A stretch of 64,000 bases of DNA from Vulcanimicrobiota bacterium. Lineage in GTDB: Bacteria > Vulcanimicrobiota > Vulcanimicrobiia > Eremiobacterales > Eremiobacteraceae. Shown in pieces: positions 43,338 through 50,519 of this stretch. Each line of letters opens with the position of its first letter. Positions within the stretch are counted from its first letter, which is position 1. Under the pieces are notes generated by a model. It saw only the letters and a list, made by a program, of their open reading frames with translations. It was not told the DNA's origin and did not search any database. Location: the NCBI GenBank assembly GCA_013290125.1, contig JABCYQ010000002.1, positions 1-64,000 of the forward strand. The letters are read 5' to 3'. The translations under genes and the position numbers were made by a program.

Positions 43338-43385
43338 GGTAGGTAAGCAACCCTACCCATGGGCGAGCGATGCTCGCCCTACTAC
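43338..43385. repeat. Tandem hairpins, the second a family B repeat on the minus strand
   Basis: GGTAGG (43338-43343) can pair with CCTACC (43352-43357), and GGGCGAGC-GAT-GCTCGCCC (43361-43379) is a perfect 8-bp hairpin followed by TACTAC. Read on the minus strand, 43385-43361 begins GTAGTAGGGCGAGCATCGCT, the family B unit. Position just after the penicillin acylase stop also suits a terminator. Confidence 0.65.
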
Positions 43386-43448
43386 ATTGGGGCCGCGCAC
43401 GCTGCTCGCACGTTCCTCTGCTACCGTTTGGGCGAACGGAGAAATATC

Positions 43449-44813
43449 ATGCAGAGTTGGAAAGTGCGCGCCGCTCTATGCCTGACTGCCGCGCTTGCGG
43501 TTACGGCCGCGATCGTGTCAGTCGGCCCGGCTAGGGCAGAAGTCCTGGCCATTCTTTCATGCGGCGGTTCGTCGCCGTGCCTGGAATGGGTGAACAGCAA
43601 GAATGGCGACGCGATCAAAGGCGTCTCCACCAACGGCGTCGCGCTCGAAGGCCGGACCCAGTTCAACAGCAGCGGCAAAACTCTCGGCAAGTCCGGCGTG
43701 CTTGGGGCAGATGCGAGCGCAAGCGGAGCGCTCGATAGCGGCGTCACCGGAACGTCGGTCAACGGCACCGGCGTCACAGGCACCGCAACCGGATCCGCCG
43801 GACAAAATGGCGTGGCAGGCTTCTCGGCGAGCACCTTCGGGAGCGGTGTCTATGGCCAGAATAGCTCGACCGGTTTCGGCGTCGCCGGTCGCAACACGTC
43901 GACCGGGCACAACAATGGAGCGGCCGGGGTACTTGCGGATGGCGGCCCGGCGAACGACGGTTTGCACGTAACCTCGGCGGCCGCCAACGGAGTCTATGCG
44001 TTCGCGCAGACCGGAACCGCGCTGTTTGCCAATCAAGGCCCGAACACATTGGCACCTGAGTTATATCTGCAAGACACATCAAGTTCGAACAACAAAATCA
44101 TTCAGGCGGTCGGGCCGTCCGGAAACGTCTTCGAGCTTGACACCCACGGCAATGTCACTATCGCCAGCAATCTTCTCGCTGCCAGCGCTAATCTTGGTTC
44201 GGCAACGCTCGGCAGCACCAGTCTGAGCGGAAATCTCGATATTTCGGGGACCGGCAGCAAAATCGTCAATACGACCAGCTCGAACGATGCGCTTACGCTC
44301 TATGGCGGCGGCGTCGGCACGGGCAGTGAGGTGTTCTCCGTCAGAGATAGCAACGCTGACGAGGAGCTTGTGGTCGATGACAAAGGCGACACGTATATCA
44401 GCGGGTTTCTCATCGTGTACGGCGGCTGTCAAACCGGCTGCGTCGCGGGAGGCAAACGCGTCAACGCCGTCACCGAGTATGCGCCGCTCGAATCCGAGCC
44501 GACCATCGAAGACAACGGCGAAGCGACTCTTTTCGGTGGATTTGCATACGTGCCCCTCGATCCGAAGTTCGCGAACGTCATGGATAAGAACGCATCGTAT
44601 CTCGTGTCCGTGACGCCCGAAGGCGACTGCAACGGACTCTACGTCGCGCAGCGAACCCCGAGCGGTTTCGCCGTGCGCGAGCTCCGAAACGGGCGGGAAT
44701 CACTGGGCTTTGAGTATCGCATCGTGGCAAAGCGCTACGGCGAGCGTGCAGCCCGCCTGCCGATGACCGGCATCATTTCGCGACCGCCGCCGCGGCGTTT
44801 ACCGCGCGCCTGA
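43449..44813 (+). CDS. Secreted Gly/Val-repeat protein with conserved C-terminal beta domain
   Basis: A 454-residue exported protein. ATG 43449 has GGAGA seven bases upstream and a signal peptide (MQSWKVRAALCLTAALAVTA, cleavage at ARAEV). Residues about 75-175 are low-complexity repeats built on GVxGTS, GVAGFS, GVYGQN and GVAGRN, as in phage-tail or surface-fibre proteins. Residues about 220-330 keep tail-fibre-like features (GNVFELDTHGNVTIASNLL, TLGSTSLSGNLDISG). The C-terminal 130 residues (YVPLDPKFANVMDKNASYLV, then GFEYRIVAKRYG) form a compact unit with three Cys. It precedes the multicopper oxidase genes by 22 bases and may be cotranscribed. Likely a cell-surface or fibre protein. Confidence 0.78.
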   Translation: MQSWKVRAALCLTAALAVTAAIVSVGPARAEVLAILSCGGSSPCLEWVNSKNGDAIKGVSTNGVALEGRTQFNSSGKTLGKSGVLGADASASGALDSGVTGTSVNGTGVTGTATGSAGQNGVAGFSASTFGSGVYGQNSSTGFGVAGRNTSTGHNNGAAGVLADGGPANDGLHVTSAAANGVYAFAQTGTALFANQGPNTLAPELYLQDTSSSNNKIIQAVGPSGNVFELDTHGNVTIASNLLAASANLGSATLGSTSLSGNLDISGTGSKIVNTTSSNDALTLYGGGVGTGSEVFSVRDSNADEELVVDDKGDTYISGFLIVYGGCQTGCVAGGKRVNAVTEYAPLESEPTIEDNGEATLFGGFAYVPLDPKFANVMDKNASYLVSVTPEGDCNGLYVAQRTPSGFAVRELRNGRESLGFEYRIVAKRYGERAARLPMTGIISRPPPRRLPRA

Positions 44814-44835
44814 TTTCACAGAAATGGAGAAAAGA

Positions 44836-45924
44836 ATGTTGAAGTTGAGCAGGGTCGCCGCGTTCGTCGCGATGGTCGGAAGCGTTGTTCTGCTCGCGTG
44901 GGCCGCCCCGTCGCAGGCGCGCACGCGCACATATTATATAGCGGCGGATGAGGTGATCTGGAATTACGCTCCGAGCGGAGAAGATCTCATCGCGCAAAGA
45001 CCGCTTCCGCCGCTGGCGCCGATGCAGCTGGGCTGGTCTTATCACAAAGCGATCTACAGGGAATATCTCGACAGCACATTCCGCAAACTAAAACCGCGGT
45101 CTCCGGAAGATGCGTACCTCGGTATACTCGGACCCGTCATCCATGCAGAAGTCGGCGATACCGTCGTCGTCGTGTTTCGAAACAATGCCAGATTTCCGTT
45201 GACGGTGCACGCGCACGGTCTGTTCTACACCAAGTCTTCTGAAGGGGCGCCGTATCAGGACGGCGTTTCCGCCTGGAACAAGAATGGCGACAGCGTGCCG
45301 CAAGGTCAGACGTTCACATATACGTGGCAAGTGCCGGAGCGCGCGGGGCCGGCCCCAGGTGATGGTAGCTCGGTCGTGTGGATGTACCACTCGCACCAAG
45401 ACGAAGTGGGCGATGTCAACACCGGACCGATCGGGCCGATCGTGGTGACCGCGAAGGGCATGGCGAAGGCCGACGGATCACCGAAGGACGTCGATCGCGA
45501 GATTTTCGCCATGTTCGCGCAGTTCGACGAAAGTTCCAGCCGCTATTTCCAGGCCAACATCAGCGACCCGCGTATCAATCCGCGTCACGTCAAACCGGTC
45601 GGGAACTTCTCCACCACCGATGACGACATCTGGACGATCAACGGGTATTCGTTCGGCAACATGCCGGTTCCGAGCATGCGCGTCGGTCAACGCGTGCGCT
45701 GGTATCTCCTTTCGACCATGAGCGACTTCGATTTTCACGCGCCGCACTGGCACGGGAATACCGTCGTGGTGAACGGCATGCGCACGGATCTTGCGCAGCT
45801 GGGGCCGATGGCGATGACCGTCGCCGACATGATTCCAGACGACGCAGGCACGTGGCTTTTCCACTGTCACGTCAACGTTCATCTCGCCGGCGGCATGGAA
45901 GCGCGTTACCGAGTGCTGCCATGA
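44836..45924 (+). CDS. Two-domain multicopper oxidase (laccase-like), all ligands present
   Basis: A 362-residue exported oxidase. ATG 44836 has GGAG with six-base spacing and starts a signal peptide (MLKLSRVAAFVAMVGSVVLL, cleavage near SQARTR). Copper ligands are complete: HAH at 125-127, HSH at 185-187, HAPHWHG at 301-307 and HCHVNVH at 343-349 with the axial Met354. The size fits two-domain laccases or ceruloplasmin-like oxidases, which oxidise phenols or metals and reduce oxygen to water, often as trimers. It forms an operon with the degenerate paralogue immediately downstream (4-base ATGA overlap). Confidence 0.93.
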   Translation: MLKLSRVAAFVAMVGSVVLLAWAAPSQARTRTYYIAADEVIWNYAPSGEDLIAQRPLPPLAPMQLGWSYHKAIYREYLDSTFRKLKPRSPEDAYLGILGPVIHAEVGDTVVVVFRNNARFPLTVHAHGLFYTKSSEGAPYQDGVSAWNKNGDSVPQGQTFTYTWQVPERAGPAPGDGSSVVWMYHSHQDEVGDVNTGPIGPIVVTAKGMAKADGSPKDVDREIFAMFAQFDESSSRYFQANISDPRINPRHVKPVGNFSTTDDDIWTINGYSFGNMPVPSMRVGQRVRWYLLSTMSDFDFHAPHWHGNTVVVNGMRTDLAQLGPMAMTVADMIPDDAGTWLFHCHVNVHLAGGMEARYRVLP

Positions 45925-46946
45925 AGAGCGTCGTCGCTTTGGTCGTCGTCACCATCGCCGGCATGCTTTGTTTCGTCGCGCCGGCCGCGGCGCGTGACCG
46001 CGTCCACTTCATCGCAGCAGACGAGGTTGTTTGGAACTACGCTCCGCAAAATAGAAATATCATCTCGGGCAAGCCGTTGCGCGCACTTCGCCCAGCCCAG
46101 CTCGGTTGGGTCTATCGCAAGGCCCTGTATCGAGAATACACCGACGCGACGTTCAAAACACTCTTGCCGATTCCACCGGGCGAACGCTACCGCGGTCTCG
46201 CCGGCCCGACGGTCCACGCGGAAGTCGGTGATACCGTTATCATCGTCTTTCGGAATCGAACCACGCTGCCTCTCGACATCGCGCCGACCGGCGTGGTTTC
46301 CAAGCCCATGCCGACTGCGGTCAGACCGGGAACGACGGTCACGTATCGTTGGCCCGTCACGGCGGCCGCTGGCCCCGCATCGGCGGATACGAGCTCCCTC
46401 GTATGGGCGTATATCTCCGACGTCCGGCAAGGAACGGTCGATAGCGCCGGGCTCATCGGTCCGTTGATCGTGACGCGTCGCGGCGAAGCTCGCGCCGATG
46501 GCTCGCCCGCCGATGTCGACCAAGAGATCGTCACGCTGTTCTCGTCGCAACTTGAAGATCAGAGTCCGCTCGTCGCTGAGAATCTGCAGGATCGCTCGAT
46601 AAATACGCGGGGGATCAACGGACATGCCGGGTCGTTTTCCCCCGATAACGCGTTTCCGTCGATCAATGGATACGTCTACGGCAACATGCCGATGCCGGCG
46701 CTGCGTGAGCATAGCCGGGTGAGGTGGTATCTGCTCACGACGATGAACGGTTTCGACGGTCACACGCCGACGTTTAGCGGTCAAACGGTTGTCACTCAAG
46801 GCAATCGCGCTGACGCGGTCAATTTGGTGTTCCGTCAAGCCGTCGTGGACATGGTGCCGGATGATCCCGGTATCTGGCTCTTGACGTGCAGCAATGACAT
46901 CCACCTCGCGCTGGGAATGGAGGCACGCTACGAAGTGCTGCCGTGA
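45921..46946 (+). CDS. Multicopper-oxidase paralogue lacking most copper ligands
   Basis: A 341-residue exported protein clearly homologous end to end to the preceding oxidase (shared IAADEVVWNYAP, QLGWVYRKALYREY, INGYVYGNMPMPALR and GMEARYEVLP). The copper sites are gone: HAH is replaced by APT (121-123), the HSH motif by ISD in AYISDVRQ, HAPHWHG by HTPTFSG, and HCHVNVH by TCSNDIH. Only single His/Cys/Met remain. The frame is intact with a good signal peptide (MKSVVALVVVTIAGMLCF), so it is not a pseudogene. It may be a structural partner, as cupredoxin domains in factor V/VIII, or a ligand-binding protein. Confidence 0.88.
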   Translation: MKSVVALVVVTIAGMLCFVAPAAARDRVHFIAADEVVWNYAPQNRNIISGKPLRALRPAQLGWVYRKALYREYTDATFKTLLPIPPGERYRGLAGPTVHAEVGDTVIIVFRNRTTLPLDIAPTGVVSKPMPTAVRPGTTVTYRWPVTAAAGPASADTSSLVWAYISDVRQGTVDSAGLIGPLIVTRRGEARADGSPADVDQEIVTLFSSQLEDQSPLVAENLQDRSINTRGINGHAGSFSPDNAFPSINGYVYGNMPMPALREHSRVRWYLLTTMNGFDGHTPTFSGQTVVTQGNRADAVNLVFRQAVVDMVPDDPGIWLLTCSNDIHLALGMEARYEVLP

Positions 46947-47009: not shown

Positions 47010-50000
47010 ATGCCTTCAGGATCGCAATTAGACGTGATCCTCTTCGGTCAGCCGCGTGTGCTCGCCGGCGACCGCGTTCTGAAATTCTCGAAACATCAAC
47101 TGTCGCTCTCGCTCTTGGCCTACTTGGTCATGCACAAGGGCGAAGCGATATCTCGGCCTTTTCTCGCGTTCACTCTTTTTCCCGACGAGCCTGAGGAAAC
47201 GGCCCTAGCCGAATTACGGCGCTACCTTTCTTTGTTGAACAAAGCGCTTCCGAAGCCGGCGGATGGTGCGTCTTGGATCATGTCGGACGCGGACAGCGTG
47301 AGTTGGAACGCCGCTGCCGAATGTTTTGTCGACGTCGCGGAGTTCGAACGGCTCGCCGGGGAGTCGGATTCGCTCGCGCGGGCCGTGGAGCTCTATCGTG
47401 GAGATTTCCTGGAAGATGCGTACGATGATTGGGTCGTCACAGTTCGGGAGCGGCTTCGCTCCGCGTACATCGCAGCGCTGGGACGACTAGTTCTCCTACA
47501 CCGAAGCCGGCGTGAATTCGCGAGCGCTATCGGTTACGCGCAACGCCTGCTCGCAGCCGAGCCGTGGCGCGAGGATGCCCTCCGCCAACTCATGGCTGCT
47601 CGATATGGCTCTGCGGACGCGGCAGGCGCGCTCGCCGAGTACGCTCGCTTTGCCGATAAGCTTCGAGCCGAAATGCGAGTCGAGCCGATGCCGGAGACGG
47701 TGGCCGTGCGCGACGCCATCCTCCGCAATGCTGCCCTGCCCGGCGCCTTGGATGCCCCTGCGCCGCGTGAGTCAAACCACAGACCGGCGGCTCGCGGCCT
47801 TCCGTTCGTCGGGCGGGCGAACCAACTCGCCCACTTGCGGATGATGTGGAGCCGCGCGGCACGCGGAGCGGGTTCGGTCGTATTCGTCGGCGGCGAGGCC
47901 GGAATCGGAAAAACGCGCCTGCTCTCCGAATTCGCGCTCGCCGTCGAATCGGAAGGCGGACGGGTGGCCGTCGGGTCGACATCCTATCCCGAAGCCGCGC
48001 CGTATCAATGCATCGTCGACGCTCTGCGCGCCGCAATGCCTGCGTTGAAGTTGGACCAACCCGACCGTTCGTCGCTCGCGGTCCTGGCGCAAATACTGCC
48101 TGAACTGGGCGCGCTGTATCCGGACATCGGCCCGCCACCCGCCTTGCCACTCGAGCGTGAAGCGACGCGCTTACTCGATGCACTTGCTCGCTACGCGGTC
48201 GAGTTCGCCCGAGTCCGGCCAGCGATGTTCGGGTTGGAAGATCTTCACTGGGCCGGAAACTCCACGATCGATGCATTGTCGGCTATTGCCCGCCGCGCAT
48301 CGCGGTCACCCTTGCTCGTCGTCGCCACATTCCGAGACGAAGATACCGAGCGCGGGCATCCGTTGCGCGCGGCGATCCGAGATCTCACGAGTCAGCGCTT
48401 GGCGAGCCATCTCACTCTCGGCAGACTGGGCCGCGACGAAATTCGGCTCTTGCTCGAGACGATGCCGGCCGCCGCGTTCGGGAGATCCGAGGAAAGCACG
48501 GACCAGCTTTACGGCGCAAGCGAGGGCAATCCGTTCTTCTTGAACGAGGCAATCGCGGAACTCGCAGAGCGCGATGCAAGTGACGATGAGGCGACGCGAA
48601 AAGGACCCTCGTCGAGCGCGGCGATCGTCGCTTCGCGTATCGCCCGGCTTTCCGCCGGCGCCCGCGCCGTCGCTGAGATCGCCGCAGTGGCCGGGCAGGC
48701 GTTCAACATCGAGGTCGTGCGTCAAGTCAGCGGGCTAGACCCGACGCAAGTCGGCGACGGCATAAACGAGCTTATCGACCGTGCGATCATCCGTGACGCG
48801 GGGTCGCGAAGCCGGTTCGACTACGCGTTTTCCCATCATCTTATCGCCGACGCGGTCTATCAGTCGATCGACGTGCAAGCGCGCACGCGCCGCCATGCTC
48901 GGGCGGCACACGTGCTTGAACAACTCGTGGGGGATCGTACCGACGAGATCGCGCGCGATCTAGCGTTCCATTACGAGTTGGGCGGCCTTTCAGCGCCGGC
49001 GACGGCGTGGTATGCAGTCGCGGCGCGCAGGTCCGCCCGCCTCTATGCAAACGAAGAGGCGCTGGAGTTCGCCGAAAAGGCGATTTCGGGTACCAGCGAT
49101 CCCGCGGCGCGCATCCCGCTCGTCCAGCTCTCGGAAGATCTACGGAGCCGGCGCGGCGATCGGGAAGGCCAACGCCGGGATATCGATCTCCTAGCGCGAC
49201 TTGTCGACGAAAGCGGCAGCGATGCCCGATCGGCCGCGACGCTGCGCGCGGACGTCCTGCGACGGCGCATCAAACTTGCGCGAAGTCTTGGTGCGGCGGA
49301 CGAAGAGACATCGCTCATCGACGAACTATGCGTCTTGGCAAAAAAATCCGGGGATGCTGCCGCGCGCGCCGATGCTGCATTGCAGCAAGCGACACACCTG
49401 CTCTTGCAAAGCCGGTCGCGCGAGTCCCAACCGCATGCGCGACGCGCGCTGAAACTCTACGAAACAAGCGGTCACTTCGCCAAGCAGATCGAGTGCCTAT
49501 GGCTGCTGGTCGACGCGGCGACCAATCTCGGCGACTTCCGTGCGTCTCAATCGTACTTGGATCTCTTGCGAAAACGTGCCGCGGAGTCCGGCGATCGAGC
49601 GGCTCAGGCGCGCGCGCTTTCGGTCATCGCCACTGAAGCGCTGCTGCACCAGCGCTACCGGGAATGCTATGACAGAACGTACGAGGCGTTGGCGCTCAAT
49701 CTCGAACTCGGCGACCGCGAGGCGGAAGCCGCATCGCGTTCGCGGATCGCTGTCGCCGCGGCGTGGCTCGGGATGTTCGACGAGGCCCTCGCCGAGTTCT
49801 CCGCTGCCCTCGATACCTACGAATCGATCGGCCATCGGCGCGGTCTTGCGACAACGCTGACCAACAAGACGGTCTTGACGATGCGGCTCGGGCTGTTTGG
49901 CGAATCGAAAGATCTCATCGGTCGGTCCGAGGAACTTGTCGCAGTCGTGCGCGAGCGCCGCATGTCGGTGGCCAACGCCGTCAATTTGAGTTTCATCAAT

Positions 50001-50519
50001 CTGCATCTCGGCGACGCGCGCGCGGCGAAGGATTTCGCTGCCGGGGCGCTCGCCGAGGCGCGCGAGATAGATTTCCCTGTCTTTGAGGCGGCGGCTCTCG
50101 CGAACTTGGGCAACGCGGAGCGCGTGCTCGGTGATAACGAAGCGGCGATCTCGCACATGTCCGCCGGCATCGCTATTCGCCGCAAAGTGCAAGAGCCGGG
50201 CGATTTCGCCGACGATTTGTCCGACCTTGCGCTCGCGTATGTTCAGGCCGGGAGGCTGGACGACGCACGACTCGTCGCTGACGAATTGTCGAATATAGCT
50301 TCGAAGCCGCTGGACGGCGCTTTTTGGCCCCAATACATACATTGGGTGATATCACAGGTCTATCGCTCGTGCGGTGATCACCGCCTTGCCGGCGAGTCGG
50401 CAGGCCGTGCGGTTAGCGCGCTCGAGGAATTTGCCGCGAAAATCGGGCAGCCGGCCATGCGCGAGGCGTTCCTGGCAATCGATGTGAACCGAGACATTCT
50501 CGCCGCCGCCCGTACGTGA
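47010..50519 (+). CDS. BTAD-AAA ATPase-TPR giant transcriptional regulator
   Basis: A 1169-residue regulator. Residues about 8-95 look like an OmpR/SARP-type winged helix (LDVILFGQPRVLAGDR, then ELRRYLSLLNKAL), about 100-240 are a bacterial transcriptional activator domain (ELYRGDFLEDAYDDWVV; LLAAEPWREDALRQLM). Residues about 268-560 form a STAND-like ATPase: FVGRANQLAHL, Walker A GGEAGIGKT at 294-302 and a Walker B FGLEDLHW region. The C-terminal half is TPR. ATP- and ligand-dependent activation of adjacent genes is usual for this class. The upstream multicopper pair is the obvious neighbour but is separated by 63 bases with no evident operator. No C-terminal LuxR HTH. Confidence 0.85.
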   Translation: MPSGSQLDVILFGQPRVLAGDRVLKFSKHQLSLSLLAYLVMHKGEAISRPFLAFTLFPDEPEETALAELRRYLSLLNKALPKPADGASWIMSDADSVSWNAAAECFVDVAEFERLAGESDSLARAVELYRGDFLEDAYDDWVVTVRERLRSAYIAALGRLVLLHRSRREFASAIGYAQRLLAAEPWREDALRQLMAARYGSADAAGALAEYARFADKLRAEMRVEPMPETVAVRDAILRNAALPGALDAPAPRESNHRPAARGLPFVGRANQLAHLRMMWSRAARGAGSVVFVGGEAGIGKTRLLSEFALAVESEGGRVAVGSTSYPEAAPYQCIVDALRAAMPALKLDQPDRSSLAVLAQILPELGALYPDIGPPPALPLEREATRLLDALARYAVEFARVRPAMFGLEDLHWAGNSTIDALSAIARRASRSPLLVVATFRDEDTERGHPLRAAIRDLTSQRLASHLTLGRLGRDEIRLLLETMPAAAFGRSEESTDQLYGASEGNPFFLNEAIAELAERDASDDEATRKGPSSSAAIVASRIARLSAGARAVAEIAAVAGQAFNIEVVRQVSGLDPTQVGDGINELIDRAIIRDAGSRSRFDYAFSHHLIADAVYQSIDVQARTRRHARAAHVLEQLVGDRTDEIARDLAFHYELGGLSAPATAWYAVAARRSARLYANEEALEFAEKAISGTSDPAARIPLVQLSEDLRSRRGDREGQRRDIDLLARLVDESGSDARSAATLRADVLRRRIKLARSLGAADEETSLIDELCVLAKKSGDAAARADAALQQATHLLLQSRSRESQPHARRALKLYETSGHFAKQIECLWLLVDAATNLGDFRASQSYLDLLRKRAAESGDRAAQARALSVIATEALLHQRYRECYDRTYEALALNLELGDREAEAASRSRIAVAAAWLGMFDEALAEFSAALDTYESIGHRRGLATTLTNKTVLTMRLGLFGESKDLIGRSEELVAVVRERRMSVANAVNLSFINLHLGDARAAKDFAAGALAEAREIDFPVFEAAALANLGNAERVLGDNEAAISHMSAGIAIRRKVQEPGDFADDLSDLALAYVQAGRLDDARLVADELSNIASKPLDGAFWPQYIHWVISQVYRSCGDHRLAGESAGRAVSALEEFAAKIGQPAMREAFLAIDVNRDILAAART

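Follow-up and report, generated by a model that had tools for sequence, protein, structure and literature searches.

Adjacent genes for ceruloplasmin-like two-domain multicopper oxidase units in Vulcanimicrobiota: probable subunits of one heterotrimer

Two adjacent genes, A and B, in the window (the whole 64,000-nt stretch of Vulcanimicrobiota DNA that was analysed) have products that probably assemble, as separate subunits, into a single two-domain multicopper oxidase, a ceruloplasmin-like heterotrimer whose composition is most likely A2B; this is judged from ligand patterns, conservation, selection, gene overlaps and phylogeny. A trinuclear cluster (TNC) common to the products of different genes would represent ceruloplasmin (CP) in separate pieces, and on balance we favor the view that the division of sites known from CP was reached here independently, before gene fusion.

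Copper ligands and selection in the A-B pair

The original prediction held that the two adjacent proteins align end to end, and the alignment bore this out with an identity of approximately 50%, both genes being full-length (Table 1). Both proteins carry a hydrophobic N-terminal segment resembling a signal peptide (judged by eye) and should probably be exported. Among proteins of solved structure, A matched each of the three CP repeats with 208-229 bits (combined E ~1e-193), and the CP repeats were also the best solved relatives of B (combined E ~1e-132); factors VIII and V were the next closest. Small two-domain laccases were far behind for A (SLAC, E 1e-11 to 1e-13) and absent from the matches of B. 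The AlphaFold model of B (pLDDT 89) gave a TM of 0.87 to one CP repeat, compared with about 0.5-0.56 to laccases and 0.63 to nitrite reductase. By sequence for A and B, and for B also by predicted fold, the closest relatives are thus the CP repeats and not the small laccases.

Table 1. Features of the A-B pair and its neighbours, in positions of the window.
Feature	Position	Strand	Remark
Gene A, two-domain multicopper oxidase unit	44824..45924	+	366 aa; 8 TNC His and type-1 site; motifs HAH, HSH, HAPHWHG, HCHVNVHLAGGM
A VHAHG	45205..45219	+	first HxH, N-terminal TNC half-site
A YHSHQ	45385..45399	+	second HxH, N-terminal TNC half-site
A HAPHWHG	45736..45756	+	type-1 His and T2/T3 His of C-terminal half-site
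A HCHVNVHLAGGM	45862..45897	+	type-1 Cys, His, Met and T3 His
ATGA linking A and B	45921..45924	+	4-nt start/stop overlap
Gene B, fold as in A	45921..46946	+	341 aa; type-1 copper ligands present, 0/8 TNC His
B IAPTG	46278..46292	+	VHAHG in A; N-terminal TNC half-site gone
B loop after first HxH position	46290..46337	+	16 aa versus 32 in A; 16 residues of A's loop absent
B YISDV	46410..46424	+	YHSHQ in A; N-terminal TNC half-site gone
B HTPTFSG	46761..46781	+	type-1 His281 retained; T2/T3 His replaced by T and S
B TCSNDIHLALGM	46884..46919	+	type-1 Cys323, His328, Met333 retained; flanking T3 His replaced by T and S
Gly/Ser-rich repeat protein	43359-44813		immediately upstream of A
BTAD-AAA-TPR regulator, large	47010-50519		downstream of the A-B pair

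The four motif replacements listed in the original prediction (HAH to APT, HSH to ISD, HAPHWHG to HTPTFSG, HCHVNVH to TCSNDIH) are really in the sequence. Its statement that the second copy has lost its copper sites does not hold: type-1 ligands survive in two of the four replaced motifs, and the TNC histidines alone are lost (8/8 in A, 0/8 in B). The ligand row of B reads ATID in domain 1 (D1), TSTS in domain 2 (D2) and HCHM at the type-1 (T1, blue) site, which is complete including the axial Met333. As T1 and TNC ligands are interleaved in the motifs and all four T1 ligands are kept, B is by its ligands a T1-only unit rather than a copper-free one. A and B each comprise two cupredoxin domains with the T1 ligands in domain 2, as do two-domain oxidases of type B; the complete 8-His TNC set of a type B protein is found in A, and not in B alone.

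Selection on the two genes was evaluated from NG86 dN/dS values, YN00 being unusable on saturated pairs. Ratios of 0.12-0.20 for B and 0.05-0.10 for A were obtained, and B evolves approximately twice as fast as A. This faster rate could speak for a decaying duplicate, a reading that is barely tenable and already contradicted by ratios of 0.12-0.20 at an NG86 dS of 0.5-1.5 and by eight intact B copies, spread over six species in three genera. B is under purifying selection. Two observations had been named beforehand as speaking against the original prediction, namely a strongly relaxed dN/dS and orthologues retaining the ligands; the ratios computed for B are not strongly relaxed, and no orthologue with TNC ligands was found among the eight B copies, all of which have 0/8 TNC His. 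The host genome contains a second A-B pair on contig 4, and its two B copies are 60% identical.

Split loci and solitary relatives

The wider family was found in Chloroflexota, Actinomycetota, Acidobacteriota, Gemmatimonadota, Pseudomonadota, ammonia-oxidising archaea and Vulcanimicrobiota; its members are almost always solitary genes with all ligands and approximately 37-44% identity to B. Within the phylum Vulcanimicrobiota (Eremiobacterota), split loci occur in the host's family only (seven species, four genera), and searches of 117 class genomes and 149 phylum genomes found none outside this family. In a genome scan, the best 80 hits contributed, beyond further records from that family, just one tandem of full units (L102), and a plasmid search returned one match, which was solitary. 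No single open reading frame (ORF) spanning several units was present in 79 loci, every unit being a separate ORF.

The split loci comprise A-B pairs (two in the host genome, two in G001, one each in G002 and G009), three-gene loci R1-R2-R3 (G007 and G009) and four-gene loci R1-R3-A-B (G004 and G011). Across loci, 14 of the 16 unit-unit junctions are 4-nt [A/G]TGA overlaps, and in A-B pairs, of the host genome and of related Vulcanimicrobiota alike, the start of B invariably overlaps the stop of A by 4 nt. The two exceptions are gaps of approximately 63 nt which, given that they fall between the R1-R3 and the A-B pairs of G004 and G011, fit two coupled modules.

T1 His/Cys/His is present in all 26 tandem units (axial ligand 25 Met, 1 Leu) and in 87/87 other units. 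A purely structural or regulatory, copper-free subunit, as in coagulation factor V, would be consistent with the A domains of factors V and VIII as the next closest solved relatives and with a factor V devoid of copper ligands (PMC3600357); against this conservation of the type-1 site, such a role for B has a poor chance. All eight TNC His were found in 84 of the 87 other units (some of which are duplicate records), the exceptions being one truncated reading frame and two archaeal units with HCS. The latter are copies from Nitrososphaeraceae (L065:6749-8026 and L085:6875-8017) with HCS for HCH, i.e. with one T3 His replaced in solitary units that are otherwise complete. One solitary oxidase copy (L049, G014:C1:1976261-1977310) is broken by an in-frame TAA. 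The L102 tandem pair (L102:5356-8068) has full ligand sets in both units, so that a tandem arrangement alone brings no ligand loss.

The R units carry partial TNC sets. R1 has all four domain-1 TNC His, and its domain-2 positions read T-H-D-S in two loci and D-H-N-D in two others; R2 is without an intact half-site; in R3 the domain-1 half-site is gone (AAYP, AAHP or AAYT) and HHHH remains in domain 2. When upstream units X (A or R1) were paired with downstream units Y (B or R3), the domain-1 half-site was found in X alone in 12/12 pairings and the domain-2 half-site in exactly one of X and Y, likewise in 12/12; the 12 pairings share common descent and amount to only a few independent losses within one bacterial family. 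Given that the half-sites are complementary, any TNC in the R1/R3 loci would have to be made by different gene products together. Outside its three-gene locus, G007 contains an 82-aa remnant and no intact unit with full ligands, and a TNC of this family would therefore be possible there only between R1 and R3. Moreover, R1 and R3 would be dead oxidases if X and Y worked apart, yet their half-sites are kept at NG86 dN/dS of 0.07-0.16, which points to a heteromer. The remnant (L141, G007:C3:63120-63350) is B-like, contains a T1 motif and lies on a different contig from the three-gene locus.

These loci also bear on two further readings of B. As a blue copper protein with T1 sites only, a B homotrimer might act as an electron shuttle, donating to or accepting from an A3 oxidase or a different partner; this could be argued from the T1 site, unchanged in every B copy despite the loss of the TNC, and from the complete ligand set of A. 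Such a role leaves the complementary half TNCs of R1 and R3 unexplained, and with R3 and B forming one lineage a single assembly rule for both is simpler; we consider the shuttle unlikely. A role for B in copper storage, as a chaperone or in substrate binding, beside an ordinary homotrimeric oxidase, would agree with its probable export, its copper ligands and its 4-nt overlap with A. This is very improbable, as no tail that might bind metal was seen in B, type-1 geometry is that of a redox site and not of a loose store, and the complementary half TNCs of the R1/R3 loci would again be left without explanation.

Proposed assembly

Two-domain multicopper oxidases are active only as trimers, and every TNC in them takes two protomers (PMC3738974, PMC13151041); units with partial ligand sets would hence be usable only in mixed rings. 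Each TNC of such a trimer combines domain 1 from one protomer with domain 2 from the adjacent one. We infer for A and B the following co-assembly, stoichiometry, copper occupancy and electron flow. In an A2B ring, the A-A interface would hold one TNC and both interfaces of B none, while blue copper in all three subunits would give three T1 sites and one TNC, equal to CP; the window pair would reach this number only as A2B. B would close the ring as a blue-copper subunit and may accept or relay electrons. By analogy only, electrons would be expected to enter at any of the three T1 sites, with O2 being reduced at the one TNC. The related loci may arrive at the same end by another route, with the domain-1 half-site supplied by R1 alone and the domain-2 half-site by R3 alone, neither of which would make a TNC by itself. 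With its full ligand set, A could also work as an A3 homotrimer apart from B. An AlphaFold model of two linked units (R3-A of G004, one stop read through) reached a pLDDT of 57 and a pTM of 0.49 and was discarded.

A heteromeric oxidase with one inert partner had been suggested in the original prediction. The heteromer stands as the best-supported reading, while the inert partner was abandoned, the blue-copper site of B being intact in every copy; the arrangement of A and B would be that of CP, as separate chains, rather than that of an oxidase with a copper-free partner. The literature searched gave no two-domain oxidase described as heteromeric; if true, this would be, to judge from that literature, the first multicopper oxidase with a TNC from different gene products.

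Type B two-domain oxidases such as SLAC and CjMCO likewise have two cupredoxin domains with T1 in the C-terminal domain, and the TNC order of A is canonical. Those described so far form homotrimers having three TNCs, whereas here partial-ligand units lie within one operon. The solitary bacterial and archaeal CP-like oxidases (87 units, some of them duplicate records) belong to the same family, but essentially all have full ligand sets, none except L102 has a partner unit, and many possess the full CP iron site. The fused six-domain oxidases Fox1 and MnxG of algae and bacteria likewise have a single TNC for three two-domain units; they differ in being single chains with the TNC between domains 2 and 3, MnxG being very distant from CP (PMC3600357).

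Relation to ceruloplasmin

CP is a six-domain multicopper ferroxidase of vertebrate blood, with hephaestin and factors VIII and V as relatives. In CP, T1 coppers reside in domains 2, 4 and 6 and a single TNC lies between domains 1 and 6 (PMC3738974). The D1/D2 ligand rows of rat CP are HHHH/LHSQ for repeat 1, QMYG/YSEL for repeat 2 and HHYT/HHHH for repeat 3; CP sequences were taken from printed alignments, in which rat repeat 3 has three residues X, and human repeat 3 was unused. The row of B resembles that of rat repeat 2, with which it has HCHM in common at the T1 site, and shows the pattern of CP domain 4. R1, R2 and R3 match CP in their intact TNC halves (N-terminal half-site, neither, C-terminal half-site), and the ligand pattern of the three-gene loci of G007 and G009 comprises three T1 sites and one TNC common to units 1 and 3. 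CP and the tandem units thus have a common T1/TNC partition over three units, including the shortened loop of unit 3: the loop after the first HxH is short, 14-17 aa, in every B and R3 and in CP repeat 3, compared with 29-33 aa for R1, R2, full units and CP repeat 1 and 31-36 aa for CP repeat 2. They differ in that CP and hephaestin hold their three repeats in one chain, while the tandem units are encoded by separate genes.

In a tree calculated with the ligand columns removed, the tandem units formed one clade and the CP repeats another, separated with support of 100/97, and R3 and B formed one lineage. Topologies forcing each CP repeat together with the matching bacterial unit were rejected by AU tests for R1 (p 3e-7), R3 (p < 1e-80) and R2 with B (p 4e-4), a rejection that is strong and not absolute, the CP rows having unusual composition and long branches. 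On this basis a unit-by-unit common origin of the tandem units and the CP repeats is rejected, and with the CP repeats in a clade of their own the simplest reading would be that the site partition arose twice, in separate genes and in the ancestry of the fused protein. According to the published scheme for CP, a two-domain oxidase was triplicated and fused to a six-domain ancestor with three TNCs, two of which were then lost (PMC3600357). The operons suggest that TNC loss can already take place in a heterotrimer of as yet unfused chains, with a recurring outcome as to which half-sites and which loop survive. If true, asymmetric site loss can precede fusion. A long-standing question thereby becomes directly testable on small bacterial proteins.

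As to the substrate, the Fe(II) ligands of CP, E272, E935, H940 and D1025 (PMC3738974), are absent as a set from all 26 tandem units, and a ferroxidase role via the CP iron site is unsupported for these. Equivalents of all four ligands were found in solitary two-domain oxidases of bacteria and archaea, including ammonia-oxidising archaea (L057, L062, L067, L068, L070, L074, L077, L085, L088, L089, L094, L105, L126, L130), suggesting that these are ferroxidases of the CP type. The conserved neighbourhood of the split loci gave no substrate clue: only the BTAD-AAA-TPR regulator recurs widely, its relatives lying beside the split loci of G001, G002, G007 and G009 and also beside the solitary gene of G054. 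The Gly/Ser-rich repeat protein is probably secreted, has no Pfam hit, and its placement upstream of the pair is conserved in G001 and G002.
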